From Gillisia lutea (lineage in GTDB: Bacteria; Bacteroidota; Bacteroidia; Flavobacteriales; Flavobacteriaceae), in the NCBI RefSeq assembly GCF_021568705.1, contig NZ_JAKGTH010000006.1, positions 806,001 to 870,000 on the forward strand: DNA of 64,000 bases. The letters are read 5' to 3'. Made by a program: the position numbers and the translations under genes. Position 1 is the first letter of the stretch, and each line of letters begins with the position of its first letter. Under the pieces are notes generated by a model, which ran no database searches, was not told where the DNA came from, and saw only the letters and a list, made by a program, of their open reading frames with translations. Below are positions 20,277-53,569 of this stretch, one piece after another.

Positions 20277-20301
20277 AAAAATAACAGTAAAAATATTAGA
20301 G

Positions 20302-21267
20302 ATGGAAGGAAGTATAGCACAAATAAAACACCTCTCACATAGATACAGTAAAGACTGGGCTATTAGAGATATCAATTTTGAAATATCAAATAAAGGAATT
20401 TTGGGATTGCTAGGATCTAACGGTGCTGGTAAATCAACTACCATGAATATTCTTTGTGGGGTTATTAACCAAACAGAAGGTGAGGCTTTTATAGATGGAA
20501 TTAATGTTAGAGAGAATCCGGTAGAGGCCAAGAAATTAATTGGATTTCTGCCTCAGAAAGCACCTTTACATTTAGAATTAACAGTAGATGAATATCTAAC
20601 TCATTGTGCTCATTTAAGATCAATCCCAACAGAAAAAATTAAAACCGCTCTAGAACTTGCAAAGGCGAAGTGTGGGATTAGTCATTTCAGTAAGCGGGTT
20701 TTGCGCAATCTTTCAGGAGGGTATCAGCAAAGAGTTGGCTTAGCACAGGCTATAATTCATAACCCTAAGTTGGTAGTTCTAGACGAACCTACTAACGGGT
20801 TGGACCCAAATCAAATACTGGAGGTAAGAAAATTAATTAAAGAAATTGCAGAGGACAGAGCAGTTATTCTCTCTACACATATACTGTCAGAAGTTCAAGC
20901 AACCTGTGATAATATAGTAATGATAGAAAATGGCCAAACTGTATTTTCTGATACGCTCTATGCTTTTAATAATTATATAGAGCCAGATACACTCATTATG
21001 GAAATGGAAAATGCTCCATCTAATGATGAATTGCTTTCTATACATGGTGTAACCGGAGTAGAAATAATAAATAAAAATAAACTTAGAATAAGGTTTAGCA
21101 CTGGCCCAGAAATTACGAAAACTTTAATTGCTACCTGTGTAATGAAAAATTGGCCATTAACTGAGATTTATCTTGAAAAAACCTCTTTGGACGGAGTATT
21201 TGCTCAGCTATCAAAAAAGCCTCAAGATAAATTCACTGAGACTATTTCTGAAATTTCCGGAAATTAA
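20302..21267 (+). CDS. ABC transporter ATP-binding protein (GldA-like)
   Basis: A cytosolic ATPase of the ABC-2 export class, 321 residues. Walker A GSNGAGKST (K44), signature LSGGYQQR, Walker B LVVLDEP followed by the D-loop NGLD, and switch histidine in STHILSE. The C-terminal 90 residues form the extra domain typical of ABC-2 ATPases. It resembles GldA, the ATPase of the gliding-related complex. It sits between the two fused GldF/GldG-type permease genes with gaps of 25 and 12 bases, so it most likely powers both. Confidence 0.92.
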   Translation: MEGSIAQIKHLSHRYSKDWAIRDINFEISNKGILGLLGSNGAGKSTTMNILCGVINQTEGEAFIDGINVRENPVEAKKLIGFLPQKAPLHLELTVDEYLTHCAHLRSIPTEKIKTALELAKAKCGISHFSKRVLRNLSGGYQQRVGLAQAIIHNPKLVVLDEPTNGLDPNQILEVRKLIKEIAEDRAVILSTHILSEVQATCDNIVMIENGQTVFSDTLYAFNNYIEPDTLIMEMENAPSNDELLSIHGVTGVEIINKNKLRIRFSTGPEITKTLIATCVMKNWPLTEIYLEKTSLDGVFAQLSKKPQDKFTETISEISGN

Positions 21268-21279
21268 AAAGAACTAATA

Positions 21280-38595: not shown

Positions 38596-39969
38596 TTATT
38601 TTATACTTTCAAGTTTTTCCAGCATAGTTGGAATTAGTTCGCTAACAGTAGGGTGTATATGCACTGCATCTCTAAGAGCGGTATAGGAAGCTCCGGCATA
38701 CATCATATCTATAATAGTGTGCACATATTCATCGGCACCTGTTCCTAAAAAACTTGCACCTAAAAATTTATTTGTCTCTTCTTCAACAAAGATCTTTAAA
38801 AGACCCTGTGTTTCACCTTTTTCCTTCGCTCTTGCAATTTCTGACATAGGTTTTTTTGCAAGCTTCGCTTTAATTCCTTTCCGGCGAATATCTTCTTCAT
38901 TTAAGCCTACTCTGGCAATTGGCGGGTCGATAAATGCTGCATAACACAATATCCTATCCGACAAAAATCTTTTCTTCTCCTCAAATAAATGGGAATTCAC
39001 TATTTGAAAATCGTTATAAGAGGTGTGGGTAAAGCCACCCTGTCCATTACAATCTCCCAATGCCCAGATATTATCTAAAGTGGTTTGTAGGCTGTTGTTC
39101 ACTTTTATATATCCTCGCTCATCGGTATCAACACCAATTTTATCTAAACCTAAGTCCGAAGTATTTGGGATGCGTCCCGTGGCTAATAATAAATGTGATC
39201 CTGTGATGGAAGGGCTACCTTCGGCACAGTCTACATTAACTTCAATTCCTTTTCCAGATTTCTTAGCGCTGATACATTTTGAATTCAGTCTAATATGAAT
39301 TTGTTCCTTTTTAAAGATATTGGCAATTTCCTGGGCCATGTCGTCATCTTCATGTTTCAGCAGTTTACTGCCTCTGTCTAAAATAGTAATCTTACTGCCA
39401 AAGCGGCGAAACATCTGTCCAAATTCCAATCCTATATAACCTCCTCCCACAACTATTAAATGTTCCGGGATTTCTTCAAGTTGCAAGATGGTCTCGTTTG
39501 TAAGATAATCGACCCCATTAAAGCCTTCAGGAATTCTTGGCCTACCGCCAACGTTGATGTAAATTTTCTCAGCAGTATAAGTAGTGTTATTTACTGCAAT
39601 ACTATTGCCATCAATAAACGTTGCCTTTCCATTAATAAGTGTAATATTTTCATTGCTCTCGAGCATTTCTTTAATACTGCTTCGGGATTCGCTAATAATA
39701 TCCTCTTTACGCTGCTTTATTTGTTTCAAATCAATAGTGACGTCACCATTAATTTTAACACCCATATCGCTGCTGTTTTTAGCAATGTAAGCTCTTCGAG
39801 CATTCGCTACATAAGCTTTGGTAGGGGTGCACCCGTTGTTTACACATGTGCCTCCCACTTGTGACTTTTCAATAATACCTACTTTTAGACCGTTTTTAGC
39901 CATGCTAGCCGCGAGTGGAGTGCCCGCCTGCCCTGTTCCAATAATTATAGCATCAAAATCAAAAGTCAT
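38596..39969 (-). CDS. FAD-dependent pyridine nucleotide-disulphide oxidoreductase
   Basis: A cytosolic flavoprotein of 457 residues in the lipoamide dehydrogenase/mercuric reductase family. FAD-binding GTGQAG near the start, redox-active CVNNGC (C42, C47), a second NAD(P) Rossmann motif (VVGGGYIGLE, about 170-180), GDCNGQGGF and the C-terminal HIHPTVSE with the active-site histidine. I chose the ATG at 39969; a longer frame runs 34 codons upstream into the neighbouring gene. It lacks the heavy-metal domain of MerA and is not beside 2-oxoacid dehydrogenase genes, so the true substrate is open. It starts 13 bases after the stop of the large outer-membrane gene and should be co-transcribed with it. 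Confidence 0.85.
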   Translation of the reverse strand: MTFDFDAIIIGTGQAGTPLAASMAKNGLKVGIIEKSQVGGTCVNNGCTPTKAYVANARRAYIAKNSSDMGVKINGDVTIDLKQIKQRKEDIISESRSSIKEMLESNENITLINGKATFIDGNSIAVNNTTYTAEKIYINVGGRPRIPEGFNGVDYLTNETILQLEEIPEHLIVVGGGYIGLEFGQMFRRFGSKITILDRGSKLLKHEDDDMAQEIANIFKKEQIHIRLNSKCISAKKSGKGIEVNVDCAEGSPSITGSHLLLATGRIPNTSDLGLDKIGVDTDERGYIKVNNSLQTTLDNIWALGDCNGQGGFTHTSYNDFQIVNSHLFEEKKRFLSDRILCYAAFIDPPIARVGLNEEDIRRKGIKAKLAKKPMSEIARAKEKGETQGLLKIFVEEETNKFLGASFLGTGADEYVHTIIDMMYAGASYTALRDAVHIHPTVSELIPTMLEKLESIK

Positions 39970-39982
39970 ACTTTCCTTTTTT

Positions 39983-42900
39983 TTAGAATTTGAATCCAAA
40001 TGTAAATACCACTCGAGCTCCTTCCGAGCTGGTATAATATCCAACATTTCCAGTAAAGGCACTGAATCCATTCACAAATACAGAACCTCCATATCCATTA
40101 TGCCATTTTTCAGAATTATCATTCTCTGTCCATACCCTTCCGTAATCGAATCCTGCTGTAAGTCCTAATCTTAAAGGAATGAAATTGGTTTTAAGTTTCA
40201 TGATTCCTACTCGCAGGTCGGTACTTTGATAAAATGCCGATTTTCCATTAAAACGTTCATTTCTATAGGCTCTCAGACTGTTATTTCCTCCTAAAGTTGC
40301 TGCATGATAAAACTCGTAATTATCACCTATAATAAAGTCGGCTCCAATTTTTGTTGCCAGCACAGCCACTCCGCTAGGGTGCAAGGGGTAATCTATTGAT
40401 AAAGCCGGTTTTACATAGGCAAATTCATTATTATGTTCATCTATATTCGTTTTATACCCTGAAGTAATATCGAATTGCATCCCTAAATTGGGATATCCGG
40501 GATTATGCTCCTTATTAAGGTATTGGTAACTTGCTTCGATCCCTCCGTAGAGTTGTTCATCGAAAACATCATTATCCTCGTTAAAAGTATCGTTGATAAA
40601 ACGGTCTTCGTTATTTGAAACTTCTAATGCTTCAATTATTGGTTTAATATAGAATTTACTTCCTCTATCGTTATTCCATATAAGTGATGGAGCGAACCTA
40701 AGTTGTTCTATGTTCACTCTATTATAATCAAGATCTACTTCGCCATCATCATAGCGGGTGTCATTTCCTGTTCCAAAATAATTCAGAGTGAAATTAGGAC
40801 TGGAATAGTAAGCATCGATCCCTAAGTTCCAGTTGTAGAAGATATGAGCAAACTCTCCTTTATAATCCAATTCTAAACCTGAAGTTGCAAAATAGTAGTT
40901 TGCAGCAAGTGTATGCTGTGTGGTAAAAGGATTCTTTGCCAAACCATAGGTGGTATAGGTGTCTGAGATCCCTGCTTTAAGCCCAGCATCGGAGCTATAT
41001 CCTAGACTCGGAAAAATGGTGTTTTGCGAATATTTACGTTTGGTGTAGTCGTAATTATTAATTTCATATGAATCTACTAACCACTTATGAGACGCTTTAT
41101 TTTTGATGGTATTTTTCTTCGATTTATAATCATAAAGTTTGGCATTATGGGTGTTCTCAAAATCGTAAATATCATTTTCTTCTCCCCCCAGGATTTTTAG
41201 CTGAATAAGATTAGAACCCTTTCCTTCAATTTTAAATTCATCATCGCCATCAAGACCGTAGATCCAGATCTCTTTGGTTTTCTTAGCATCATATTCATTT
41301 GTAAAAACTACCTTATCATCTTTTGTAATAGAAATTTCTGTAATTCCGTTATCTTTTCTTGTAATAAGGAATTGGTCGTCCTCTTCGGTGCCAATCACTG
41401 TTTGAAATCGGCTTAAATAATTATAATAGTTCCTGGCGATCTCTTCTAAGTTGCCTCTTCGTAACTTCAGGTTTTTCTTTATCTGGGTGATGCTTTCATC
41501 TTTTACATCTTTGGGTAAATTAGCAAATGCAGCATCTATTTTCTCATCGGTTAAATTTTCCTGAATAAATGTGACCTGTTTCTTCCAATCTTCCCATTTA
41601 GAGGTTTTAATTAGCGCGTTATCCAGAGGGTAACCGGCAACGTTAAACCATTTTAATTGCTTCAATTCCGGGCCATAAGATTGCATCGCTCTAAAGGCCG
41701 GAACTCCTAGTTTTAAAAGATCTATTATGGGGCCATCATATTTTGAAAAGGCTTGGTCCCTATCTCGGGGGATAGGCTCATATTTCTTTTTGTTTCCATC
41801 TTCTGAAAATTCAGACCACCTCCACTGGTCCTGATGCCTGTCCCAATCTCCTACAAGCATATCGAAAAGCCTCGCCTTGATATATTCATCTTCATCTACA
41901 TAGGCATCTTTAGATTCCTGTATTTCTTCCAACAAATCGGATGTGCTTAAGATATCATCGGGCTTGCCAAATTCTTCAAATTCTTTATTTTCATCTCCCA
42001 CGTGCTTTTCTAGCATATAAAGTTCATCTCCATATTCATCATTATAGATACCAAGTCCTTTTTGCTTGGGTACGTAGAATATTTCAGGGTTGATATGATA
42101 GATATTAAGCGCCTCCATTAAATCGTTGGTAGCAAATTGAGCATATGGGTGTGCAGTTGTATAATAATCCATTACCACTCTTTCAGCTATTGTATTTTCT
42201 ACAATATCTCCTACATAGTGCTCTTTTACGTTATTTTGAATAAAACGAATGGCGCTTTTTCTAAGAGCTCGAAGTGTAAATTCATTTTCATTATCATTTA
42301 TAAGGCGTAATGATCTGGACTGATGCCCTCCTCCTTCAGAAATAGGCTTTACATTTCCGGGAAGGTCTTCTAAGAACAAGGTAGGAGCCGCGATCTTCTT
42401 GCTGTAAATTTCTCTGTAATGATCACCCCAAATCCATTTGTAAAATCCGCTTTTTTCGGTTTCTTCTTCAGTGTATATCGAAGACATTTCAGTTTTTCCA
42501 TAATTGCTTCTAGGTTTGAAGGAAACTTCATCTAAACGAGTACGTTGTCTCTTTATGTCTTTAGCGAATAGGAGGTTGGAGCTGTTTTCTAAGGCTTCAT
42601 AAAAATATACTTTTGAGCTTCCATCTTTATAAACTTCAAGCTTAGCATATCCAATTTTACTGGAAGCGAAATGCCCTTCTTTCTTAATTTTAGCAGATTG
42701 TGGAGAAATGGTTGCACCGCTAATAATTTGAGGCACCTCGTGATGATCTAAATATTGAAGGTTCCTATCGTTTCCCGATACAAAAATCACATCATCAAAC
42801 TGCCGTGCAATGGTCTCTAGTCTCGAATGTAATTCTTTCTGACGGTCATTTTGATAGGTGTTTTTTGAAAAGCCTCCAATTTTATTGATAAAACCGTATT

Positions 42901-43594
42901 TGGTGTTGGTTAGAATAGGGTGATGTATGGCAACTATCACCGTTTTACCTTGATTATCTTTTATTTCATCAGCAAACTCAACAAAGAACTGCTCTCTGGT
43001 TTTAAGATCACATTTATTATTGATGTAAGGGTGTTCATCCCAATCTTCTAAAAACCATTGCGAATCTACCATTACTAACTCAACGTTGTCGCTCAAGCTT
43101 TCGTGCTCTAATGCACAACCGTCATTTGGCCAGAATTTCCCTTTACTATTATCTTGTAAAAAAGACTCCAGATCGTCTATATTCTTATGTCCACCTTTAT
43201 TCCACTCATTTACTCCCGGCGTGTAAATTATAGATCCGTTAAAATCTTTAAGAGGAGTAAAAAGATGCTCTTTTATAAATTTTTCTTCTTCGTCTCTTTG
43301 CTTACCTTCTTTAGGATAACCGTTATTGCTGGTCAAATTTCCAAGGAGTACAAAAGAAGCGTCTTTATCTTTTTTTGAGGAAGCTACAATTTGTTTCAGT
43401 ACACTATTAGATGTTCCTTCGTTCTCCAGACCTGTGTTGGCGGTAAAGTAAACTGTTTTGGAAATAGAATTTTCAGTCCCGCTTTTTTCTTCCTGAGCAA
43501 AAGCGATGTTGTTACTAAAAAGAAGCAATAAAATGTTAATTGTAGAAAGCTTCAAAAAGCCTTTAAAGTTAAAATCGGTAATTTGATTTTGCAT
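39983..43594 (-). CDS. Outer-membrane fusion: degenerate calcineurin-like domain, kinase-like middle domain, beta barrel
   Basis: A 1203-residue exported protein (signal sequence at 1-34). Residues about 45-345 follow the pattern of calcineurin-like phosphoesterases but with altered metal sites: GNLTSN where GDN is usual (about 85), PGVNEW instead of PGNHDW (about 126), VSGNDRN instead of SGHDHN (about 272); IHHP is kept (about 223). Residues about 410-640 form a separate domain with GGGHQSRSLRL, LRALRK (K446), VGDWDRHQDQWRW (D585, H587) and PIPRDRDQAF (D611, D613), recalling Fam20C/CotH-type kinases. Residues about 855-1203 form an Omp85/surface-antigen-like barrel (NSLRAYRNERF) ending in F. 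I recall close relatives in many Flavobacteriia annotated only as metallophosphoesterase. It is first in a two-gene operon with the flavoprotein. Confidence 0.75.
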   Translation of the reverse strand: MQNQITDFNFKGFLKLSTINILLLLFSNNIAFAQEEKSGTENSISKTVYFTANTGLENEGTSNSVLKQIVASSKKDKDASFVLLGNLTSNNGYPKEGKQRDEEEKFIKEHLFTPLKDFNGSIIYTPGVNEWNKGGHKNIDDLESFLQDNSKGKFWPNDGCALEHESLSDNVELVMVDSQWFLEDWDEHPYINNKCDLKTREQFFVEFADEIKDNQGKTVIVAIHHPILTNTKYGFINKIGGFSKNTYQNDRQKELHSRLETIARQFDDVIFVSGNDRNLQYLDHHEVPQIISGATISPQSAKIKKEGHFASSKIGYAKLEVYKDGSSKVYFYEALENSSNLLFAKDIKRQRTRLDEVSFKPRSNYGKTEMSSIYTEEETEKSGFYKWIWGDHYREIYSKKIAAPTLFLEDLPGNVKPISEGGGHQSRSLRLINDNENEFTLRALRKSAIRFIQNNVKEHYVGDIVENTIAERVVMDYYTTAHPYAQFATNDLMEALNIYHINPEIFYVPKQKGLGIYNDEYGDELYMLEKHVGDENKEFEEFGKPDDILSTSDLLEEIQESKDAYVDEDEYIKARLFDMLVGDWDRHQDQWRWSEFSEDGNKKKYEPIPRDRDQAFSKYDGPIIDLLKLGVPAFRAMQSYGPELKQLKWFNVAGYPLDNALIKTSKWEDWKKQVTFIQENLTDEKIDAAFANLPKDVKDESITQIKKNLKLRRGNLEEIARNYYNYLSRFQTVIGTEEDDQFLITRKDNGITEISITKDDKVVFTNEYDAKKTKEIWIYGLDGDDEFKIEGKGSNLIQLKILGGEENDIYDFENTHNAKLYDYKSKKNTIKNKASHKWLVDSYEINNYDYTKRKYSQNTIFPSLGYSSDAGLKAGISDTYTTYGLAKNPFTTQHTLAANYYFATSGLELDYKGEFAHIFYNWNLGIDAYYSSPNFTLNYFGTGNDTRYDDGEVDLDYNRVNIEQLRFAPSLIWNNDRGSKFYIKPIIEALEVSNNEDRFINDTFNEDNDVFDEQLYGGIEASYQYLNKEHNPGYPNLGMQFDITSGYKTNIDEHNNEFAYVKPALSIDYPLHPSGVAVLATKIGADFIIGDNYEFYHAATLGGNNSLRAYRNERFNGKSAFYQSTDLRVGIMKLKTNFIPLRLGLTAGFDYGRVWTENDNSEKWHNGYGGSVFVNGFSAFTGNVGYYTSSEGARVVFTFGFKF

Positions 43595-43946: not shown

Positions 43947-46730
43947 TTGAGTAAACTGATCTTTTTCTTTTTTTTATTAATCCCTCTGTTAGGCTATAGC
44001 CAAGATATGCCACCAGTAGTTAATTTTAATGCTACTCAATATGCGGCAGGCAATCAAAACTGGATGATTGCTCAAGGAGTAGACAAAGATATTTACATTG
44101 CCAATGGAAGTGGACTACTTGAGTATACCGGTGAGAAATGGTCTTTATATGCGGTACCTAATAACACAGTAGTGAGATCGGTAAAGGTTTCGGGAGAACG
44201 TATCTATACAGGGGCGTATATGGAAGTAGGATATTGGAAAAAGGATGATTTAGGAGTTTTAAATTACACCAGTTTATTATCCCAGTTTCCTAATAAATTA
44301 GAAGATGGGGAGCAGTTTTGGCATATTGAAACTTTAAGTGATTATGTGATTTTTCAAAGTTTTGAAGGCCTGTATATCTATGATGAAGGAGCTAATAGTA
44401 TTAGTATTGCTCAGCTTTCCACTAATAACCCAATTATTAATCTTTTCAAAGAGGAGCAAAAAATCTATTTTCAGGTAGCTTCTGAAGGTTTATTCACGAT
44501 AGAAAACGCACAGCCAAAACTGGTTATTCCTCATAAATTTTTAGAGAATATCGAACTGCTCTCTTTGCAGCGAAGAAATGCTGAATTAAAACTAGTAACT
44601 CAGGATGGTAATTTTTATAGCTGGAATGGAGAACAGTTAACAAGGGAATATATAGAGCTCACTAATAGCTTGAAGGGGAAAAGTATTTTCTCTAGCCTTC
44701 ATCTGGAAAATGGGAATATGATATTAGGAACGGTTTCAGATGGTATTTACCAGATAGATCAAAACGGGATCATTCTTAATCATTTTAATCAGCAAAATGG
44801 ACTTCAAAATAATACCATTTTAAGTCTGTTTCAAGATAATAGCAATAATGTTTGGGCGGGGCTTGATAATGGGTTAAGCCTTATAAATCTAGATTCTCCT
44901 TTTTCTATTTACGAAGACAGTAATGGCAAAATTGGCTCCGTATATTGTTCTTATCAAAGTAAAGAATACCTCTATTTGGGTACAAATCAAGGTTTATATT
45001 ATAGAAAAAAAGGGAATAATAATTTTGAACTAGTTGCAGGAACGAATGGCCAGGTATGGAATATTCAGGAATTGGATGGAAGCCTACTTTGTGGTCATAA
45101 TTACGGAACTTTTCTTGTAGAAGGGGTTAAAGCTACTAAGATTGCTGACAGATCTGGGACTTGGATAATTAAAAAGGTTGAGGGAAATTCAGAAATATAT
45201 GTTCAAGGGCACTATAATGGAGTTAGCTTTTTAAAGCGAACCAAGGCTGGTTTTGAGGTGCTTCCAATGCTTAAAGACTTTCCTCATTCTTCAAAGTTCA
45301 TCATTTCCAAATTCAATAATGAGTTTTGGATAGGGAATGAGCATAAAGGTATTTATCGAATTGAATTGGATGATTCCTTTCAAAATATACTTTCTATCAA
45401 GAACTATCCGTTAAATCATATTTCCGGGATTACTTCCAGCATCTTTACCTTTAATGACACCTTGTATTATGCAAGTAAAAATGTGTTGTTACAGTACAAT
45501 AGCGTATCCGATTCATTTCAGGAAAATAGTAGGTTGGCAATGCTCTTGAAGGATGTCAATAGAATTAGTGGAAAGATCATAAATGAAAATGATTATAAGA
45601 TCTGGGGTTTTGCCAACAATTCTATTTTTAATATTACAAAAGAGCCTTTAAATTCATCATATGTCTTAAATAACCTGTACTTGCCCAAAGACTGGCGCAC
45701 AATTCCATCAGGCTATGAAAACATTTCCAAACTTGATAAGGGCGAATATCTGCTGGGTATAGCAAACGGTTTTCTTAAGCTCCATAAGCCTTCTAATCAA
45801 AATAGTGCCTATTCCATAAGAATAGATGAGATAAGGAATTTTAAAATTGATGAAGATTCAAAGTTGGTTAGCCTTACCCAACCCCCTAAATTTCACTATA
45901 AAGAGAATAATTTCTCGTTCAGTTTTAGTACGCCAGTATATAAGAAGTTTATTACTCCTTTATATAGTTATCGGTTAATTGGGCTTAGCGATAAATGGAC
46001 TTCTTGGAGCGAAATCCCTGAAGCTAGTTTTAAGAACCTGTCTTATGGTAGCTATACTTTTGAAATAAGAAATATGATTGGAAAGGAACTTTCTTCAGCA
46101 GCTTCCTATTCCTTTATAATTAATAGGCCATTTTATTTAAGCTATTGGGCTTTTCTGGTATATCTGGTATTGCTGGCTCTTATAATGTTAATTATACATA
46201 GGTTATATAAGAAACATCATCAAAAACTTGGGGAAGAACGAGAAAGAGACTTACGACTGCAAAACATGGAGGCAGAACAAAAGATTATAAAGCTTCAAAA
46301 TGAACAGCTGGAAAAAGATATGGCCGGTAAGAACCGGGAGTTGGCGGCTTCTGCTATGAGTTTAATTAAAAAGAATGAATTTCTTATTAGTATAAAGGAA
46401 ATATTAAAATTATCAGAATCGACTAAAGCCAAAGCCGTTATCAAAACTATCGATAAGGATATTAGTGAAAAGGATAACTGGAATTTCTTTAAAAAGGCCT
46501 TTAACAATGCCGATAAAGATTTCTTCAAAAAGGTTAAGGCAATTCATCCAGATCTAACTTCTAACGATTTAAAGCTATGCGCTTATTTAAGGCTTAATTT
46601 GTCTTCTAAAGAGATTGCTCCTCTATTAAATATTTCGGTGAAGAGTGTAGAAATTAAACGATATCGTTTGCGAAAAAAGATGGACTTAGATCGAGACGTT
46701 AATTTGACCGATTATATTTTAGAGTTATAG
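43947..46730 (+). CDS. SusR-like transmembrane regulator (propeller, YYY domain, LuxR-type HTH)
   Basis: A 927-residue inner-membrane sensor-regulator. A signal sequence (MSKLIFFFFLLIPLLGYSQ) is followed by two-component-regulator propeller repeats (about 30-640, e.g. NNTILSLFQDNSNNVWAGLD), a Y_Y_Y domain (about 650-725, YSYRLIGLSDKWTSW), one transmembrane helix (about 730-755), a coiled coil (about 760-800) and a C-terminal LuxR-like helix-turn-helix (about 865-925, LSSKEIAPLLNISVKSVEIK). There is no histidine kinase domain, so it should sense a glycan in the periplasm and bind DNA directly. The start is TTG at 43947; no in-frame ATG is near and the signal peptide fits. It precedes the laminarin-type locus, which it probably controls. 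Confidence 0.88.
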   Translation: MSKLIFFFFLLIPLLGYSQDMPPVVNFNATQYAAGNQNWMIAQGVDKDIYIANGSGLLEYTGEKWSLYAVPNNTVVRSVKVSGERIYTGAYMEVGYWKKDDLGVLNYTSLLSQFPNKLEDGEQFWHIETLSDYVIFQSFEGLYIYDEGANSISIAQLSTNNPIINLFKEEQKIYFQVASEGLFTIENAQPKLVIPHKFLENIELLSLQRRNAELKLVTQDGNFYSWNGEQLTREYIELTNSLKGKSIFSSLHLENGNMILGTVSDGIYQIDQNGIILNHFNQQNGLQNNTILSLFQDNSNNVWAGLDNGLSLINLDSPFSIYEDSNGKIGSVYCSYQSKEYLYLGTNQGLYYRKKGNNNFELVAGTNGQVWNIQELDGSLLCGHNYGTFLVEGVKATKIADRSGTWIIKKVEGNSEIYVQGHYNGVSFLKRTKAGFEVLPMLKDFPHSSKFIISKFNNEFWIGNEHKGIYRIELDDSFQNILSIKNYPLNHISGITSSIFTFNDTLYYASKNVLLQYNSVSDSFQENSRLAMLLKDVNRISGKIINENDYKIWGFANNSIFNITKEPLNSSYVLNNLYLPKDWRTIPSGYENISKLDKGEYLLGIANGFLKLHKPSNQNSAYSIRIDEIRNFKIDEDSKLVSLTQPPKFHYKENNFSFSFSTPVYKKFITPLYSYRLIGLSDKWTSWSEIPEASFKNLSYGSYTFEIRNMIGKELSSAASYSFIINRPFYLSYWAFLVYLVLLALIMLIIHRLYKKHHQKLGEERERDLRLQNMEAEQKIIKLQNEQLEKDMAGKNRELAASAMSLIKKNEFLISIKEILKLSESTKAKAVIKTIDKDISEKDNWNFFKKAFNNADKDFFKKVKAIHPDLTSNDLKLCAYLRLNLSSKEIAPLLNISVKSVEIKRYRLRKKMDLDRDVNLTDYILEL

Positions 46731-46981
46731 CCTTTACAAACTATTCAAATAACTCTACATGTCCTCTACATGATAACTAAAAAGCTGTGTTTCAGCATTC
46801 GCAAAAAATAATAGTTATTATGTGATATTCTTAATTAGAGGGGTTAAAAATCACTTTTAATGCCATTTCTAAGCAATAATAAAATAAAATATTGCTACTG
46901 TATATATTTTGTAAAGGTGCTTTTCTCATGTACTTAACTTTCTATTGATATATTGCTAATGCAATTTTAACAATTAACAAG

Positions 46982-49900
46982 ATGATGAGATTCACAAGTT
47001 TTTTAATTGTCCTTTTAGGGGGAGTCTTTTCTATGTGCTCGCAATCGTTTTCGGTTGAAGGTAATGTGGTAGATGAGAATAATATTCCGCTACTAGGAGT
47101 AAACGTACTCGTAAAAGGGGAAGCACGGGGAACCACTACAGATTTTGATGGGAATTTTTTAATAGACAATGTCTCTGCTAATGATATTTTACAATTTACC
47201 TATGTTGGATTCTTAACTAAGGAGGTCCAAGTGGGTAATCAAAGAACAATAAGTGTTCAGTTAGAAACGGACTCCCAATCTTTAGATGAAGTAATAGTAA
47301 TTGGATATGGTACCCAGCAACGAAAGGATATTACCGGTGCTGTTTCCATAGTGTCAGAAAATACTATTAAAGAGCTAAACCCTATAAAATTAGAACAGGC
47401 TTTGCAAGGTACAGCAGCCGGGGTAAATGTTACACCTTCTTCTGGTGCTCCGGGTGCAGGAATAAATATCAACATTAGAGGAATCGCTTCAAATAGCGTG
47501 AATGGCCCCCTCGTTTTAATAGATGGGTATCAGGGAGATTTGGGCACGTTAAATCCCAACGATGTCGCTTCTATCTCCATTCTTAAAGATGCACAAGCTG
47601 CTATTTATGGGATAGCGGGCGCTAATGGTGTAGTTCTTATTACTACAAAAACAGGGAAGAAAAATACAAGTCCGCAAATACAATACGATTCGTATGTGGG
47701 CTTACAGGAAGCTTCTCGCATGATCCCTTTATTAAATGCTACAGAATATGCGTTGCTTTTAAATGAAAGCTATGCTAATAACGGGCAGGACATTCCTTTT
47801 CCAGATGTTAGTGAGCTTGGAAAAGGATCCGATTTTCAAGATGAGGTATTGGAAACGGCCCCTATCTACAATCATAATTTAACTTTATCGGGTGGTTCTG
47901 AAAAAGTTACCTATTCTATAGGTGGTTCACATCTCTATCAGGAAGGAATTATTGGTTCAGAAAAATCAGATTTTACCAGAAGTACAGCCCGATTCAATTT
48001 GGGAATAGCTATTAGCGATCAATTCGATCTAAGTGCAAATTCCATTTACACCAATATAGACAGACGTTCTATAAATGAGAATGGTTTAGGTTCTGTGCTA
48101 TTTAATGCCCTAAACATAGCACCCACTTTTGCCTTAGATCAGGAAGATCTGGATGGAAAACTAGGAAACGAAATAATTAACCCTTTATCTCAAATCGAAA
48201 ATACTTTTAATGAGTACAACCTTAATAAATTCAACGGTTCTTTTAGTTTGGATTTTAAACCTATTGAAGCATTAAAATTCACTTCCAGATTGGGATATAG
48301 TGTTTCAAATAGTAAAGGGAAAGATTTCGCTCCAATTATTAGTTATGGTCCCGGAAAGGTTTTTAATAACGATAGAAGCAGGGTGAATCAAAATAGGATA
48401 AATGATAATAGTTATACATATGATCTATTTGGAACCTATGATAATACCTTTAATGAAACACATCATGTAACTGCTACTGCCGGTATGACGGTTATCAAGA
48501 ACTGGGGAGATGGTTTGTACGCTACAGGCTATGACGTTCCTAATAATTCCTGGGATTTTGCAGATATCAGTTTAACTACCGGTACTAACGACGGAATTAA
48601 TAATAGCGCCTATAAATATGATACGCGCAAACTATCATTTTTTGGGCGATTACAGTACGACTATAAAGGGAAATATTTAGTGTCTGGGATGTTGCGAAGA
48701 GATGCATCTACAAGATTTAGCCCTGATAATAGAGTAGGATATTTTCCTTCTGCCACTGCAGGCTGGATCCTGTCGGAAGAAGATTTTTTAAGTGATTCTC
48801 AACTTATCTCTTTTCTGAAATTAAGAGCGAGTTTTGGAATTTTGGGTAACGATGAAACAGGAGGATCTCAATTTTACAGGTCTTTGCTTAATGGGGAAGC
48901 CACCTATGTTTTTGACGGCGCGTTGGTAAATGGAAAAGCTCTAGGAAGCCTAGCAAACCCTGCCGCAGGTTGGGAAGAGGCTGAAAAAACTAATATAGGA
49001 GTAGATATTAGATTGTTAAAAAATAAATTGGATATCACTGCTGATGTCTTCCGGGAAGATAGAAAGGACTTACTTATTGCAGGGATTCCAGTTTCAGGGA
49101 TTTTTGGAGGCGGAGCTCCGGGCTCTGGCGCTCCAACAATCAATGCAGGAACCACGAGAAATGAAGGGTTAGAGTTTTCAGTAAAATATTCAGATAACAA
49201 GGGAGATGATTTCAATTATAGTATTGCCTATAATGCTACTATTCTGAATAATGAAGTTACAGAGGTTAATGGAACCGAATTTCTTTCCGGAGGTCAATTT
49301 GCTGTAGGGCAACCACAACCTTCCAGATTTCAGGCTGGCTTTCCAATAGGGTATTTCTACGGATATAAAACCGATGGTGTTTTTCAGACTCCTGCAGAAG
49401 TGGCGGCACATCCTTCTCAACTTGCATTAGGTGCTAATGCCTCTCCAGGCGATATACGGTATGTAGACATAAATAACGATGGGGTGATAAATACCGACGA
49501 TCGTACCAATATTGGAGACCCCATTCCAACTGCTACAATGGGGCTTAATATCAATTTGAATTACAAGAATTTTGATTTCACAGCGTATATCTATGCATCT
49601 TTAGGTAATGACATGGTTAGGAATTACGAGCGAAATCAACCAAATGTTAACAAATCTGCTTACTATTTAGAACGTTGGACAGGTCCCGGTACGAGTAATG
49701 AAGTTCCGCGGGTAACAACAGGGGCAACAGCAAATACCGCTTTTTCCGATTTCTATGTGGAAGATGCATCGTATGCAAGAATTCAAAATGTGCAATTAGG
49801 CTATAGCCTTCCGGGAACTTTCCTATCAAAAACAGGGCTAGACAGATTAAGGATTTACGCTTCTGTAAACAACTTGTACACATTTACTAAATACAAAGGT

Positions 49901-50005
49901 TTTGATCCTTCGGCATCTACCGGAGAAGCAATTGGAGGAGGAATAGATTACGGGTTCTATCCGGTTCCCAGAATATTCTTAGCCGGAGTAAATCTTAACT
50001 TTTAA
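46982..50005 (+). CDS. SusC-type TonB-dependent transporter without STN domain (beta-glucan locus)
   Basis: A 1007-residue outer-membrane importer. The signal peptide (about 1-21) leads directly into a carboxypeptidase-regulatory-like domain (about 24-100, NVVDENNIPLLGVNVLVKGE), plug (about 105-225, LDEVIVIGYGTQ, ILKDAQAAIYGIAGANGVV) and barrel ending NLNF. It lacks the STN domain found in the other two SusC proteins, in line with control by a SusR-like regulator instead of FecI/FecR. ATG 46982 and ATG 46985 are both possible starts. SusD follows after 12 bases. The substrate is inferred as laminarin-type oligosaccharides from the GH16/GH3 genes. Confidence 0.93.
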   Translation: MMRFTSFLIVLLGGVFSMCSQSFSVEGNVVDENNIPLLGVNVLVKGEARGTTTDFDGNFLIDNVSANDILQFTYVGFLTKEVQVGNQRTISVQLETDSQSLDEVIVIGYGTQQRKDITGAVSIVSENTIKELNPIKLEQALQGTAAGVNVTPSSGAPGAGININIRGIASNSVNGPLVLIDGYQGDLGTLNPNDVASISILKDAQAAIYGIAGANGVVLITTKTGKKNTSPQIQYDSYVGLQEASRMIPLLNATEYALLLNESYANNGQDIPFPDVSELGKGSDFQDEVLETAPIYNHNLTLSGGSEKVTYSIGGSHLYQEGIIGSEKSDFTRSTARFNLGIAISDQFDLSANSIYTNIDRRSINENGLGSVLFNALNIAPTFALDQEDLDGKLGNEIINPLSQIENTFNEYNLNKFNGSFSLDFKPIEALKFTSRLGYSVSNSKGKDFAPIISYGPGKVFNNDRSRVNQNRINDNSYTYDLFGTYDNTFNETHHVTATAGMTVIKNWGDGLYATGYDVPNNSWDFADISLTTGTNDGINNSAYKYDTRKLSFFGRLQYDYKGKYLVSGMLRRDASTRFSPDNRVGYFPSATAGWILSEEDFLSDSQLISFLKLRASFGILGNDETGGSQFYRSLLNGEATYVFDGALVNGKALGSLANPAAGWEEAEKTNIGVDIRLLKNKLDITADVFREDRKDLLIAGIPVSGIFGGGAPGSGAPTINAGTTRNEGLEFSVKYSDNKGDDFNYSIAYNATILNNEVTEVNGTEFLSGGQFAVGQPQPSRFQAGFPIGYFYGYKTDGVFQTPAEVAAHPSQLALGANASPGDIRYVDINNDGVINTDDRTNIGDPIPTATMGLNINLNYKNFDFTAYIYASLGNDMVRNYERNQPNVNKSAYYLERWTGPGTSNEVPRVTTGATANTAFSDFYVEDASYARIQNVQLGYSLPGTFLSKTGLDRLRIYASVNNLYTFTKYKGFDPSASTGEAIGGGIDYGFYPVPRIFLAGVNLNF

Positions 50006-50017
50006 AATATTGAAAAA

Positions 50018-51481
50018 ATGAAAATACTTAATTCAAATTTTAAACATATTCTGCTCCTGTTTTCAGTAATGATACTTGCGGGCTGTAGTGAAGACTACTT
50101 AGATAAAACAGAGGAGTACAGCATAGATTCTGAAAATTATTTCAATTCAGAAGAAGATTATTATAATGCGCTTATTGGGGTATACGATATTCTTCAATCT
50201 ACTTACGTTAATGTACTTCTTGGAGAGATCGCTTCCGATAATACTTTAAGCGGAGGAGAAAGTGCAAATGATGTTATAGGATTTCAACAAATTGATGTAA
50301 TGCAACATACTCCTGTAAACGATAACCTCGATGATATTTGGGATTGGAATTTTGCAGGGATTCAGCGGGCAAATTATATTTTAGAATTTCAGGATAAAAC
50401 CGATTTTGATGGGAAAGAAAAGATATTAGCTGAAACCCGTTTTTTAAGAGCCTATTTCACTTTTGAATTACTGAAATGGTTTGGTCCAATTCCTTTGAAA
50501 GGAGATGAACGCTTTAGATTAGGAGATGAGAAAACTATTCCCAGAGCATCTAAGGAGGAAGTATATGCTCAGATAGAAGCCGATTTAACCTATGCTATCT
50601 CAAATTTAGAATATACCGCACCACAAGTTGGAAGGGTGACCAAAGGAGCAGCGCAGGCCTTATTAGGGAAAGCGTATCTGTATCAAGAAAAGTTTGATCA
50701 GGCTGCAACAGTATTTACAAGTGTTATTAACGATGGACCTTATCAGCTTTCCGATTTCAATATCCTGTTCGAACAGGTAGGAGAAAATAATGAGGAATCG
50801 GTGTTTGAAGTACAATATACTGGAGAAGAAGGAGCTGGTTTTGACTGCTTGCAATGTAGTGAAGGGAATGTTGCAGTCGGTTTTCAGGGAATAAGAAATT
50901 ATACAGGTCCTAAATTTGAATCTGGTTTTAGCTTTAATGTTCCAACTGCCGAGGTTTTTAATGCCTTTAGTGAAAACGACTTACGTAGAGATCTATCAAT
51001 ATTAGATATCGATGCCTGGGCTTCTGAAACAGGCGCAACCTATGCAGAAGGCTATAAACATACCGGGTACTTCAATAGAAAATACCTTCCAAGACAAAAT
51101 GATAATGTTGGAGATGCTAATCTTACACAGCCTAATAATTATCGAGCTATACGATATGCCGATGTGTTGCTTATGGCAGCTGAAGCCTTGAACAGAGGTA
51201 ATATTGATGATGCAAGAGCGAGAACTTATCTCAATCTTGTTAGAGAAAGAGCAAATCTCGACCCCGTTACCGAATCGGGGAACAATCTTACCGAAATTAT
51301 CTATACCGAGCGCAGACTTGAGTTGGTAGGGGAAGGACATCGTTTCTTTGATCTTGTAAGAACAGGACGGGCAGCTCAAAATATTACTGGTTTTACTACC
51401 GGAAAAAATGAACTCTTTCCAATTCCACTGGAAGAAATAGAATTTTCTGAAGGCAACTGGGAACAAAATCCGGGATACTAA
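50018..51481 (+). CDS. SusD/RagB-type glycan-binding lipoprotein (beta-glucan locus)
   Basis: A 487-residue lipoprotein (lipobox LAGC, C23), lid and binding partner of the preceding SusC. N-terminal SusD region (NYFNSEEDYYNALIGVYDIL, AETRFLRAYFTFELLKWFG) and RagB/SusD C-terminal part (about 300-487, with YADVLLMAAEALNRGN and ERRLELVGEGHRFFDLVRTG) are clear. It lies 12 bases after susC and 3 bases before the next lipoprotein gene, so it is central in a tight operon. Confidence 0.93.
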   Translation: MKILNSNFKHILLLFSVMILAGCSEDYLDKTEEYSIDSENYFNSEEDYYNALIGVYDILQSTYVNVLLGEIASDNTLSGGESANDVIGFQQIDVMQHTPVNDNLDDIWDWNFAGIQRANYILEFQDKTDFDGKEKILAETRFLRAYFTFELLKWFGPIPLKGDERFRLGDEKTIPRASKEEVYAQIEADLTYAISNLEYTAPQVGRVTKGAAQALLGKAYLYQEKFDQAATVFTSVINDGPYQLSDFNILFEQVGENNEESVFEVQYTGEEGAGFDCLQCSEGNVAVGFQGIRNYTGPKFESGFSFNVPTAEVFNAFSENDLRRDLSILDIDAWASETGATYAEGYKHTGYFNRKYLPRQNDNVGDANLTQPNNYRAIRYADVLLMAAEALNRGNIDDARARTYLNLVRERANLDPVTESGNNLTEIIYTERRLELVGEGHRFFDLVRTGRAAQNITGFTTGKNELFPIPLEEIEFSEGNWEQNPGY

Positions 51482-51484
51482 AAA

Positions 51485-53569
51485 ATGAAACTTATGAGAA
51501 CGTATTTAAAAATTCTTTTATCCGCCTTTATAGCTATTACATTTTTTAGCTGTTCTGATGATGATTCTTTAGTGGATCTCGACTATTTGGAAGCTCCCTC
51601 AAATTTAGGAGCAACTTTTATGATAACTCAAGACAATTCGGGACTTGTAACGGTTATACCAACCGGAGATGGTGCCGCATTATATTCAGTGAATTTTGGA
51701 GATGGCTCTGCAGCTTCAGAAGATATTAAACCAGGGGAAAGTGTAGAGCATGTATATCTCGAGGGAGAATATGATGTGGTGGTGACTGGTAAGAATCTAA
51801 CAGGAAAAGAAGCACAGGGAACTCAGAAACTGGTAGTTTCATTCTTAGCTCCTGAAGATCTGCAGGTTGATGTAGTCAAGGATGCTGTAAATAATTATAA
51901 GATTTCTGTTTCTGCATCTGCCGAAAATGCTGCAATGTTTGAAGTATATTTTGGAGATGTTGATGATGAAGAACCAACACCTTTAATGATTGGCGAAACG
52001 GTCGATCATATATATGAAAATGTTGGGTTATATAATCTTCGTGTTGTTGCGTTAAGTGGAGGAGCTGCCACTACCGAGCTTGTACAGGAAGTCTCCATTA
52101 CCGACCCGCTCTTTTTACCTATAGATTTTGAATCTACTACCCTTAACTACGGTTTTTCTAATTTTGGTGGAGGTGAAGGCGCTGGTGCACCGATTATTGA
52201 TAATCCTGATCCTTCTGGAGTTAATACAAGTGCTAAGGTGGCTTCTTATATCAAAGTGGCAGGTTCTGAGGTTTGGGCAGGAACAACCATCGCTTTAGAT
52301 GAGCCTATAGATTTTTCAAGTAAAAGATATGTAAGTGTAGATGTGTGGTCTCCTTCCAGTGGCACGCCAGTTTTATTCAAAATAGAAAATTTAGAAGATT
52401 CTAATAAATTCGTTGAGTTTAGTGCGACCACAACTGTTGGAAATCAATGGGAAACATTGGTGTTCGATATGAACGCAATAGACCCGGCAATTGAATATGG
52501 TAGAATAGCTTTTTTCTTCAATTTTGGAACTCCTGGAACCGGAGAGACCTATTATTTCGATAATATCAAGACCACAAGATTAGAGCTGGTAAAACTTCCT
52601 CTTAATTTTGAATCGGAAAGTCTTACCTATTCTTGGGGCGGATTTGGAGGAGCAGGAGGAGAGGTTATAGATAATCCTGATGCTACCGGAATTAATACCA
52701 GTACAAAAGTGACAAAACTTTCTAAAGGTAATGGCGCTGAAACTTGGGCCGGAATTTCTTTGAATCTTGATGAAAAAGTAGATTTTTCTGCAGGGACTAC
52801 TATAAAAATGAAGGTTTGGTCTCCCGAAGCAGGAGTTCCTATCCTCTTCAAATTTGAAAACTCTCTATCTGCTCCCGACGGAAATGGAAATCCTTCGGTA
52901 GTTGTAGAAGTAATACAAAACACAACCGCTTCCAATGCATGGGAAGAGTTGAGTTTTGATCTCACCACTTTTGAAGCATTTAGTGCTGATATAAATTATG
53001 ACAGAGCGATTGTTTTTTACGACTTCGGAAATTCGGGAGAAGGAACCGATTTTTATTTCGATGAACTAAGAGTTAGTTCAGATGAAGAACCAACAAGCGT
53101 TGTTCTTCCTGTAAATTTCGAATATCCCGACCTCGAATATAAATTAACAGCCTTTGAAGGAGCCGAATCTGTAGTAGTAGAAAATCCTTTCTCGCAGGGA
53201 ATAAACACCAGTAATATGGTCGTGAGATCAACAAAAACCGTGGGAGCGCAATTTTATGCAGGTACAACTTTAGAATTGGAAGCTCCAATAGATTTTTCAT
53301 CTCAACAAAAGATCAGCATAAAAGTATATTCTCCAAAAGCTAATATTCCCGTTCGGTTAAAACTGGAGAATGGAACCGATGGGAATATTTTCCTGGAAGT
53401 AGATGCAAATACTACGGTTACCAATGAGTGGGAGGTATTAACCTTCGATTTTTCCGGAATGGATACCTCTCGTGATTACAGTAAAATGATTGTTTTCTTT
53501 GAGTTTATAGCAGATTTACCGGGAGACGGTGCCATATATTATTATGATGATATTCAACTTACTAATTAA
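51485..53569 (+). CDS. Multi-domain surface glycan-binding lipoprotein (PKD domains plus three tandem repeats)
   Basis: A 694-residue lipoprotein (lipobox FFSC, C23). Two PKD-like domains lie at about residues 40-205 (YSVNFGDGSA and FEVYFGDVDD). Three tandem repeats of about 155-170 residues follow, starting at L211 (LPIDFES), L371 (LPLNFES) and L541 (LPVNFEY). Each has the same order of blocks: INTS or VNTS, WAGTT-type, PIDFSS, V.SP.. .PV..K.EN, NEWE.L.FD and YYFD. They look like carbohydrate-binding beta-sandwich modules. No catalytic motif is seen. It sits between SusD and a GH16 gene, the usual place for a surface glycan-binding protein, and the three repeats would give multivalent binding to beta-glucan. 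Confidence 0.8.
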   Translation: MKLMRTYLKILLSAFIAITFFSCSDDDSLVDLDYLEAPSNLGATFMITQDNSGLVTVIPTGDGAALYSVNFGDGSAASEDIKPGESVEHVYLEGEYDVVVTGKNLTGKEAQGTQKLVVSFLAPEDLQVDVVKDAVNNYKISVSASAENAAMFEVYFGDVDDEEPTPLMIGETVDHIYENVGLYNLRVVALSGGAATTELVQEVSITDPLFLPIDFESTTLNYGFSNFGGGEGAGAPIIDNPDPSGVNTSAKVASYIKVAGSEVWAGTTIALDEPIDFSSKRYVSVDVWSPSSGTPVLFKIENLEDSNKFVEFSATTTVGNQWETLVFDMNAIDPAIEYGRIAFFFNFGTPGTGETYYFDNIKTTRLELVKLPLNFESESLTYSWGGFGGAGGEVIDNPDATGINTSTKVTKLSKGNGAETWAGISLNLDEKVDFSAGTTIKMKVWSPEAGVPILFKFENSLSAPDGNGNPSVVVEVIQNTTASNAWEELSFDLTTFEAFSADINYDRAIVFYDFGNSGEGTDFYFDELRVSSDEEPTSVVLPVNFEYPDLEYKLTAFEGAESVVVENPFSQGINTSNMVVRSTKTVGAQFYAGTTLELEAPIDFSSQQKISIKVYSPKANIPVRLKLENGTDGNIFLEVDANTTVTNEWEVLTFDFSGMDTSRDYSKMIVFFEFIADLPGDGAIYYYDDIQLTN

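Follow-up and report, generated by a model that had tools for sequence, protein, structure and literature searches.

An outer-membrane protein of Gillisia lutea that probably joins an atypical kinase-like domain to an Omp85-type barrel

A protein encoded by Gillisia lutea (Bacteroidota; Flavobacteriaceae) is best explained as an atypical kinase-like enzyme of the HipA/CtkA/CotH type carried on an Omp85-type barrel in the outer membrane, most likely at its periplasmic face. This explanation is considered likely and rests on the domain order, a high-confidence model of a protein-kinase-like (PKL) fold, the conservation of a lysine, an aspartate, a glutamine or asparagine and a DxD motif, predicted export signals, and the loss of most phosphatase motifs in the clade to which the protein belongs. 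Its status as an active kinase is an inference, and neither donor nor substrate has been identified. To our knowledge, Gram-negative bacteria offer hardly any examples of phosphorylation beyond the inner membrane. That a widespread, unannotated outer-membrane family keeps both the shape and the catalytic residues of a kinase points to a possible transfer of phosphate, or of a similar group, on the far side of that membrane.

The gene occupies positions 39983-43594, on the minus strand, of the window, by which is meant the whole 64,000-nucleotide stretch analysed (contig NZ_JAKGTH010000006.1, positions 806,001 to 870,000), and all features described below lie on the same strand. Its 1203-residue product comprises, in order, a signal peptide, a purple-acid-phosphatase (PAP)-like domain, the kinase-like domain, a beta linker domain, and an Omp85-type barrel; residues 34-1203 were modelled at full length with a pLDDT of 90.8 and a pTM of 0.88. 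The signal-peptide-like N-terminus (residues 1-33; 43496-43594) was recognized in the sequence, with cleavage near AFA-Q judged by eye. Neighbouring genes in the window encode a redox enzyme, a HAD hydrolase, a LacI regulator, and SusC/SusD proteins, and suggest no operon. An earlier sequence-only reading had proposed this reading frame, without giving its strand, and a three-part layout of calcineurin-like N-terminus, kinase-like middle, and Omp85-like barrel; the frame held exactly and so did the layout. Every residue string that it quoted sits where it had been placed in the 1203-residue protein, so that its numbering of K446, D585, D611, and D613 is correct, but the limits that it gave the middle domain (410-640) failed, the model giving a larger domain of about 377-735. 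Its core inference, a kinase-like domain tethered to a beta barrel, would have been refuted by an unrelated predicted fold or by a lack of conservation of K446, D585, and D611/D613; the predicted fold is protein-kinase-like and these residues are conserved across Bacteroidota, so the inference was not refuted on either count and is supported by both, with activity and target not shown.

The PKL domain (residues 377-735; 41390-42466) was delimited from the model, from PDB fold matches, and from hhalign comparisons with CotH and HipA. An AlphaFold2 model of residues 365-845 reached a mean pLDDT of 95.2 and a pTM of 0.93, and in this predicted model the domain meets the criterion of a two-lobed PKL fold. 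A Foldseek search of the PDB returned 556 matches at E ≤10, 18 of them at E ≤0.001, and the best 50 rows were inspected. Named kinases or kinase-fold proteins make up 40 of these 50, and the other ten (seven of MSMEG_1954/Rv3197, two of an 'MDT protein', and one pre-40S particle chain) we take to be kinase-like. CtkA fills the first seven rows (E 6.3e-6 to 5.3e-5, TMt 0.51-0.55), followed by STK33, Rio2, ADCK3, HipA (structures 3tpb, 3tpd, and 3tpv among the best 50), and PI4KII-alpha, while CotH and Fam20C structures are absent from the best 50 of the 556. The TM-scores are moderate, with TMq of 0.17-0.35 across the best 50. Eight matches at E ≤0.001 were obtained in BFVD, three with 'kinase' in their names and five unnamed, uncharacterized or called ADP-ribosyltransferase; a phage PI3/4-kinase is among the BFVD matches. 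Sequence searches of the PDB gave no rows with the window protein and only two, both at chance level, with the family profile A1. Taken together, the fold, as predicted by the model, and the conservation of its residues are strongly supported.

Residues in the positions expected of a kinase core can be assigned within this fold. The segment GGGHQSRSLRL (residues 421-431; 42302-42334) forms a glycine-rich turn between N-lobe strands 416-421 and 426-432, and G422 is present in 163 of 171 aligned rows, an alignment that includes the window protein and one fragment lacking the core. K446 (42257-42259), the inferred ATP-lysine position, ends the motif LRALRK (residues 441-446) and the model strand 438-446. 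The inferred catalytic loop, VGDWDRHQDQW (residues 581-591; 41822-41854), was placed by alignment with CotH and HipA, with D585 the putative catalytic aspartate and Q590, five residues on, at the putative position of the metal-binding asparagine. PIPRDRDQAF (residues 607-616; 41747-41776) holds the inferred metal-binding DxD, identified by hhalign and by CotH column counts; from the profile alignment, PIPRDRD would be the equivalent of the CotH motif P-[YW]-D-[YF]-D. Across the 171 rows, lysine is found at 446 in 167, aspartate at 585 in 164, arginine at 586 in 167, histidine at 587 in 160, glutamine at 590 in 163 (asparagine in five), and aspartate at 611 and 613 in 163 and 162, respectively. 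The strand-3 lysine, catalytic aspartate, metal-binding asparagine or glutamine, and aspartate thus stand in the expected order, and their catalytic roles are inferred from topology and profile alignment, without a three-dimensional superposition of residues.

Of the window's 37 stop-to-stop frames that are 200 aa or longer, only this protein meets the loose pattern GGG...K...DxHxx[QN]...DxD, which six of 20000 shuffles of the same protein also meet; the pattern was composed only after the window protein was known. Within the protein's own clade, in which the phosphatase is degenerate (60 rows, window protein included), nine of ten kinase positions are kept in 60/60 rows and the tenth, E529, in 59/60. 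Degenerate-phosphatase rows as a whole keep the kinase core in 62 of 64, the remaining two lacking an intact K/D/D/D set, as do nine of 33 barrel-type rows without a phosphatase domain that cover the core, and core residues have been lost in several relatives (e.g., L120, L156, and L131). Part of the family may therefore be pseudokinase.

A possible kinship with known kinases is suggested by profiles rather than by single-sequence searches. Alignment by hhalign scored 40.3-41.9 against CotH (E 1.7e-4 to 7.1e-4 over 180-192 columns) and 29.2-31.2 against HipA, the program's own probabilities being only 26-49% and 4-7%; the maximum among 51 unrelated families, most with shallower alignments, was 22.8, a value that the CotH and HipA scores both exceed. 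The window protein matched no Pfam family at E ≤1, CotH, HipA_C, and Fam20C included. Among 87 members, two matched CotH weakly (best E 0.022) and one matched Fam20C at E 0.0011, below the Pfam gathering cut-off in both cases, and unrelated families scored similarly (Dna2 0.0017, EnY2 0.0033). HipA (PF07804) was not among the best 25 of the 57 Pfam families matched by A1 members, and no sequence match of the family reached any curated kinase cut-off. CotH genes occur in 24 of 61 sampled Bacteroidota genomes; the corresponding search for Fam20C found none in 61 and is uninformative because controls also gave none.

The N-terminal domain (residues 45-330; 42605-43462) has a purple-acid-phosphatase/GAP50-type fold, assigned from a Foldseek match of the full-length model to GAP50 (3tgh, TMt 0.68) and from a table of motifs; by sequence, the relative L095 matches GAP50 at 1.3e-6 and tartrate-resistant acid phosphatase (TRAP) at 0.02. 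The description 'calcineurin-like' was thus correct for the fold, and it missed the loss of four of the five phosphatase motifs. Where intact relatives carry xGDxG, LGDN, PGNHDW, HHP, and SGHxH, the window protein has TANTG, LGNLT, PGVNEW, AIHHP, and SGNDRN, with only HHP kept. These five motifs are known for their roles as metal ligands. Among 133 full-length rows, all five are present in 68, none to two in 64, and three or four in one, and a second copy in the Gillisia lutea genome has all five intact. Plasmodium GAP50 has been described as a membrane anchor and has also been reported as an acid phosphatase (PMC8949495). By analogy with the GAP50 anchor, the N-terminal domain of the window protein is probably a pseudophosphatase that would serve as a binding or regulatory module.

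The kinase-like domain is followed by the beta linker domain (residues 736-854; 41033-41389), which is almost all-beta in the model, with one four-residue helix. The match of a stand-alone relative of 429 aa (L113) ends at residue 729 and excludes the linker, while those of L114-L116 end at 827-842 and take in most of it. The barrel (residues 855-1203, ending in F; 39986-41032) was defined from model strands and fold matches; it has 16 strands of at least 10 residues by manual count, and BamA and TamA lead its Foldseek matches. The NCBIfam model Omp85_fam matches at E 1.6e-11 with 44.3 bits, below its curated cut-off of 200, and Pfam Omp85 is above cut-off in two of six relatives (L119 and L121). 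No POTRA domain is seen before the barrel in the full-length model, and the barrel is for this reason named Omp85-type only. A survey of Omp85 proteins recognizes a 'noNterm' group, which has no N-terminal extension at all, and the words metallophos, calcineurin, kinase, and phosphatase are all absent from the survey's main text (PMC4104836).

From its targeting signals, the kinase-like domain is predicted to lie outside the cytoplasm, most likely in the periplasm. Signal-like or lipobox N-termini were found in 130 of 133 full-length rows by a simple home-made heuristic, and the N-termini of the stand-alone domains, judged in part by eye, are of the lipobox, signal-like or membrane-anchor kind. 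The conservation of Cys160 in 117 of 133 full-length rows, and of Cys195 in as many, is consistent with a possible disulfide in an oxidizing compartment.

Whole-genome sampling, which covers Bacteroidota only, gave matches to the kinase-like domain in 115 of 296 genomes and in 63 of 140 genera; a few of these matches are weak and partial. The 171 rows consist of 133 full-length proteins, 34 barrels without the phosphatase domain, and four middle domains alone, and further stand-alone copies were found beyond this alignment. The domain falls outside the families of Pfam and NCBIfam, none of which matches more than five of 87 members even at E ≤1. The annotation as metallophosphoesterase alone that the earlier reading ascribed to relatives was compared with plasmid records only, where four of five copies are called 'hypothetical protein' and one has no annotated feature; all five plasmid matches come from Bacteroidota genera, by the genus names in the records. 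Around 80 named loci, up to 6 kb on each side, there is no common operon partner, and even the most frequent neighbour, a generic receptor (by eye), is present at no more than 21; among stand-alone members, synteny is shared mainly within close pairs. The literature searched, without most subscription papers, showed no title on a phosphatase-fold/kinase-like/Omp85 fusion, and papers on Bacteroidota BAM and TamL mention no kinase, phosphatase or phosphoesterase in their main texts (PMC12611786, PMC12045153). Riemerella OMP76 was considered as a family member and rejected, being described as a TonB-receptor-like barrel (PMC10281475). It is possible that the PKL family is already listed in KINtaro or in the 2020 review of bacterial PKL families.

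Under the preferred explanation, a nucleotide and a divalent metal would bind between the lobes of the kinase-like domain, and phosphate or another nucleotide-derived group would pass to an envelope protein, glycan or lipid, with the barrel holding the domain at the outer membrane, most likely at the periplasmic face. Where the phosphatase domain is intact, as in the second copy and the 68 of 133 full-length rows, it could work against the kinase. The main difficulty is the identity of the donor, ATP not being known to occur in the periplasm.

The alternative that survives best is a special case of this explanation and not exclusive of it, namely that the protein is active as a PKL enzyme without being a protein kinase, in that its substrate is a lipid, a glycan or a small molecule, or in that it transfers AMP or another group. 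This remains possible. PI4KII-alpha and the phage PI3/4-kinase are among the fold matches, PKL proteins with AMPylation or glutamylation activity exist (PMC10870513), and the host membrane is rich in lipids and glycans; SelO and SidJ are familiar PKL proteins that transfer AMP or another group. Against it, there is no direct evidence for any substrate, and a protein kinase function has been described for CotH, the closest relative by profile (PMC12189002). Less probable is a pseudokinase scaffold, in which the PKL domain would bind nucleotide, metal or a partner without catalysis and regulate the barrel or sense periplasmic nucleotides. The absence of a known periplasmic ATP source, the degeneracy of the adjoining phosphatase domain in the window protein's clade, and the losses in the three relatives named above favour it; however, each of K446, D585, Q590, D611, and D613 is conserved in 162-167 of the 171 rows and in all 60 of the clade, and joint retention of lysine, catalytic aspartate, and DxD is less to be expected of a pure scaffold. 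Surface display, which differs from the preferred explanation solely in the side of the membrane, would have the enzymatic domains pushed through the barrel to meet external substrates and nucleotides from lysed neighbours. Surface-exposed lipoproteins are common in Bacteroidota, and PlpD-type proteins were once thought to pass their enzyme domain to the surface, but the PlpD domain was found only in the periplasm (PMC11116518), and stand-alone relatives from the window protein's own family have an N-terminal membrane anchor (by eye) that would keep the domain attached to the inner membrane on its outer face, leaving this alternative improbable. A barrel-borne phosphatase with a merely structural middle part and a fortuitous kinase resemblance, suggested by Pfam marking only Metallophos, Omp85, and ShlB in six full-length relatives, is all but excluded by the kinase fold match, by a clade that lost most phosphatase motifs yet kept the middle-domain residues, and by the 34 of 171 rows with a barrel and no phosphatase domain, the four of 171 with the middle domain alone, and the additional stand-alone copies.

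A bolder extension of the preferred explanation is possible, in which the family would constitute a Bacteroidota-wide envelope phosphorylation system with an outer-membrane-anchored atypical kinase and a purple-acid-type phosphatase in one polypeptide. This pair would reversibly modify proteins, glycans or lipids of the envelope from within the periplasm, and duplicated copies would have specialized, the window copy keeping the kinase half and a pseudophosphatase regulator. If true, this would require a phosphodonor in the periplasm that has yet to be described. An active protein would provide a concrete enzyme for testing phosphorylation in the envelope, together with the donor used and any tie to the biogenesis of the outer membrane. 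Copies with an intact phosphatase fold and copies with a degenerate one provide a natural experiment on which of the two halves is important.

The protein can be compared with several known systems. CotH (PF08757) is the best profile match, with the aspartate of GNWD and the P-x-D-x-D motif in register with D585 and PIPRDRD; it differs in having tyrosine two residues after the aspartate in 25 of 32 sequences, where the window protein has DRHxDQ, and the window protein additionally fuses its kinase-like domain to a phosphatase fold and a barrel. In the HipA/CtkA group (PF07804), CtkA is the best fold match, the catalytic-loop spacing DxHxxN/Q is identical, and the first aspartate of the HipA motif TDDH aligns with D585 by hhalign, whereas no DxD was found in 19 compared HipA sequences, 18 of which have alanine two residues before the aspartate. 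HipA-type kinases are cytoplasmic or secreted and are not known to carry a barrel. The DRH motif of the window protein recalls Fam20C (PF06702), which has this motif and a location in the secretory pathway. TRAP/purple acid phosphatases and GAP50 share the N-terminal fold, the window protein differing in being bacterial, in its fusion to a kinase-like domain and a barrel, and in the loss of four of the five motifs. The patatin-Omp85 protein PlpD has a different enzyme fold, and no POTRA is seen in the model of the window protein, but in both an enzyme or enzyme-like domain is followed by a 16-stranded Omp85-type barrel (PMC11116518).

The protein encoded on the minus strand at 39983-43594 very likely carries a protein-kinase-like (PKL) fold between its phosphatase-type fold and its Omp85-type barrel, as judged from a predicted model. 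A sequence-only reading had placed a kinase-like domain in this open reading frame, which encodes 1203 aa; the frame held exactly, and every motif quoted from it was found at the residue number given. AlphaFold2, run on residues 365-845 with 87 sequences, returned a model with a mean pLDDT of 95.2 and a pTM of 0.93. A fold search of the PDB with the middle-domain model gave 556 matches at E ≤10, 18 of them at E ≤0.001, and 50 of the 556 rows were examined. Helicobacter pylori CtkA fills the first seven (E 6.3e-6 to 5.3e-5, TMt 0.51-0.55), after which come STK33, Rio2, MSMEG_1954, ADCK3, HipA, and PI4KII-alpha. Forty of the 50 bear the names of kinases, of pseudokinase domains, or of proteins known to have a kinase fold; the remaining 10 (MSMEG_1954 and Rv3197, seven rows; "MDT protein", two; a pre-40S particle chain, one) we take to be kinase-like too. 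Since TMq lies between 0.17 and 0.35 across the 50 rows, the match is one of superfamily level, and CotH and Fam20C structures are absent from them. In a viral structure library, three of the eight matches with E ≤0.001 carry "kinase" in their names, the other five being unnamed, uncharacterized, or called ADP-ribosyltransferase.

The model places a GGG turn between strands 416-421 and 426-432, and K446 as the last residue of strand 438-446. Across 171 aligned rows, G422 is conserved in 163, K446 in 167, D476 in 163, E529 in 163, D578 in 170, D585 in 164, H587 in 160, D611 in 163, and D613 in 162; position 590 is Q in 163 rows and N in five. The kinase roles assigned to these residues are inferred from topology and profile alignment, without structural superposition. 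The set K446, D585, D611, and D613 is intact in all 68 rows with an intact phosphatase; it is not intact in two of 64 degenerate-phosphatase rows and in nine of the 33 core-covering rows that lack the phosphatase fold. These exceptions speak against an enzyme in every member, and the relatives L120, L156, and L131 appear to be pseudokinases. In four further relatives (L127, L128, L159, and L160), P-[ILV]-R-[HQ]-Y replaces PRDRD and K446, D585, and Q590 are kept, possibly marking a pseudokinase branch or one of altered chemistry.

The family is widespread. The whole protein as query matched in 135 of 296 Bacteroidota genomes, the match being confined in some of them to the phosphatase or the barrel, and the middle-domain profile alone matched in 115 of 296 (63 of 140 genera), a few matches being weak and partial. 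In a pattern search of genome contigs, at least 576 of 589 matches encode a relative, and the best 80 were retained. Phosphatase fold, kinase-like domain, and barrel occur together in 133 of the 171 rows, the window protein included; 34 have the barrel without the phosphatase fold, one being a fragment missing the kinase core, and four have the kinase-like domain alone. Stand-alone copies found later lie outside these counts. They include proteins of 426-433 aa at L226:6364-7650, L227:6235-7533, L228:6321-7607, L229:6559-7851, and L230:6942-8219, from genomes of the same family as Gillisia lutea, with what looks by eye like a membrane anchor at the N-terminus and profile matches that stop short of the beta linker. 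Stand-alone kinase-domain genes also lie side by side, three at L231:4129-9148 and two at L232:5436-8775, four of the five appearing lipoprotein-like by eye. In one genome (G019), about 1.5 kb separates a CotH-family gene from a relative with kinase-like domain and barrel on the opposite strand (C15:16534-17403 and 18854-21292). Gillisia lutea itself has one other full-length copy (L002, G000:C11:158509-162117, 1254 aa), with a lipobox-like N-terminus, LLFGCST, by eye and V in place of E at position 529; it may serve as a natural partner or contrast for the window protein.

In the phosphatase half, five of six relatives scanned scored above the Metallophos cut-off, and L033, which belongs to the window's clade, gave no family match; the relative L095 matched GAP50 (1.3e-6) and mammalian TRAP (0.02) by sequence; the full-length window-protein model matches GAP50 at TMt 0.68. 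Of the 133 full-length rows, 68 have all five phosphatase motifs, 64 retain 0-2, and one has an intermediate number. The window protein retains HHP alone, and L002 keeps all five. In the window's clade, defined as the 60 rows, itself included, more than 45% identical to the window protein in the kinase-like domain, nine of ten kinase positions are kept in 60/60 and the tenth in 59/60. Mean pairwise identity there is 0.51 in the phosphatase fold and 0.564 in the kinase-like domain, against 0.535 and 0.531 in 50 related intact-motif rows. By these identities the degenerate domain is still under constraint, as would be expected of a module whose role is not enzymatic. A quick FastTree tree of the kinase-like domain, with several long branches, requires six changes for the degenerate class, five forced by well-supported branches, so the motifs were probably lost more than once.

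The full-length model (pLDDT 90.8, pTM 0.88) has 16 long strands at its C-terminal end and no visible POTRA domain; BamA and TamA head its fold matches, and 154 of the 167 barrel-type rows end in F. By a simple home-made heuristic, the N-terminus is signal-like or has a lipobox in 130 of the 133 full-length rows, in 25 of the 34 that lack the phosphatase fold, and in all four stand-alone rows; in additional stand-alone relatives, lipoboxes or a membrane anchor at the N-terminus can be seen by eye. At position 160, as at position 195, 117 of the 133 full-length rows share the Cys of the window protein, and PlpD, an Omp85 protein, holds its patatin domain in the periplasm (PMC11116518). From the N-termini, anchors, cysteines, barrel, and PlpD, the periplasmic face is the probable site, though this has not been shown.

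Downstream on the same strand, a flavoprotein reductase frame (38596-40071) overlaps the 3' end of the gene by 89 bases; with a main domain that starts only at residue 40, this reductase probably has its real start codon further inside the frame. The adjoining region, 43947-53566, encodes a SusC-like receptor, a SusD protein, a PKD/carbohydrate-binding protein, and a Y_Y_Y-domain protein whose LuxR-like C-terminus falls just below cut-off, and resembles a polysaccharide utilization locus.

We propose, as the most likely mechanism, that the PKL domain binds nucleotide and metal and passes a phosphate or related group to an envelope substrate; the phosphatase fold would counteract it enzymatically in some copies and would be a pseudo-enzyme module in the window protein. 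The main objection is that no donor is known in the periplasm. Some transferase activity is inferred to be likely, on a substrate that may be protein, lipid, glycan, or small molecule.

PKL enzymes, purple-acid-phosphatase folds, and Omp85 barrels are each known kinds. No title in the open-access full-text literature searched described their fusion or a PKL domain within an outer-membrane protein, and the family may already be among the 72 PKL families of KINtaro (PMC10870513). The window protein had no Pfam match, even at E 1, and an NCBIfam match to Omp85_fam (E 1.6e-11, best stretch 1021-1203) that scored 44.3 bits where the cut-off is 200. By sequence alone the middle domain is distant from all kinase-fold families matched: among 87 members searched singly, two matched CotH (best E 0.022) and one Fam20C (E 0.0011), which alone proves nothing, since unrelated families such as Dna2 (0.0017) and EnY2 (0.0033) match likewise. 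Profile-profile comparison is better evidence of kinship, though its probabilities are low: hhalign scored 40.3-41.9 against 32 CotH sequences (E 1.7e-4 to 7.1e-4, 180-192 columns, probability 26-49%) and 29.2-31.2 against 19 HipA sequences (4-7%), whereas 51 unrelated families, most of them represented by shallower alignments, had a median score of 15.1 and none exceeded 22.8. In the CotH alignment, the Asp of GNWD (28 of 32 sequences) stands opposite D585 and IPYDYD opposite PIPRDRD, with 30 and 22 of the CotH sequences having the first and second Asp of the DxD; all 19 sequences of the HipA set keep the three named residues (Asp, His, Asn) of DxHxxN. On these alignments and column counts, the family looks like a composite whose catalytic loop resembles that of HipA and whose metal motif resembles that of CotH.
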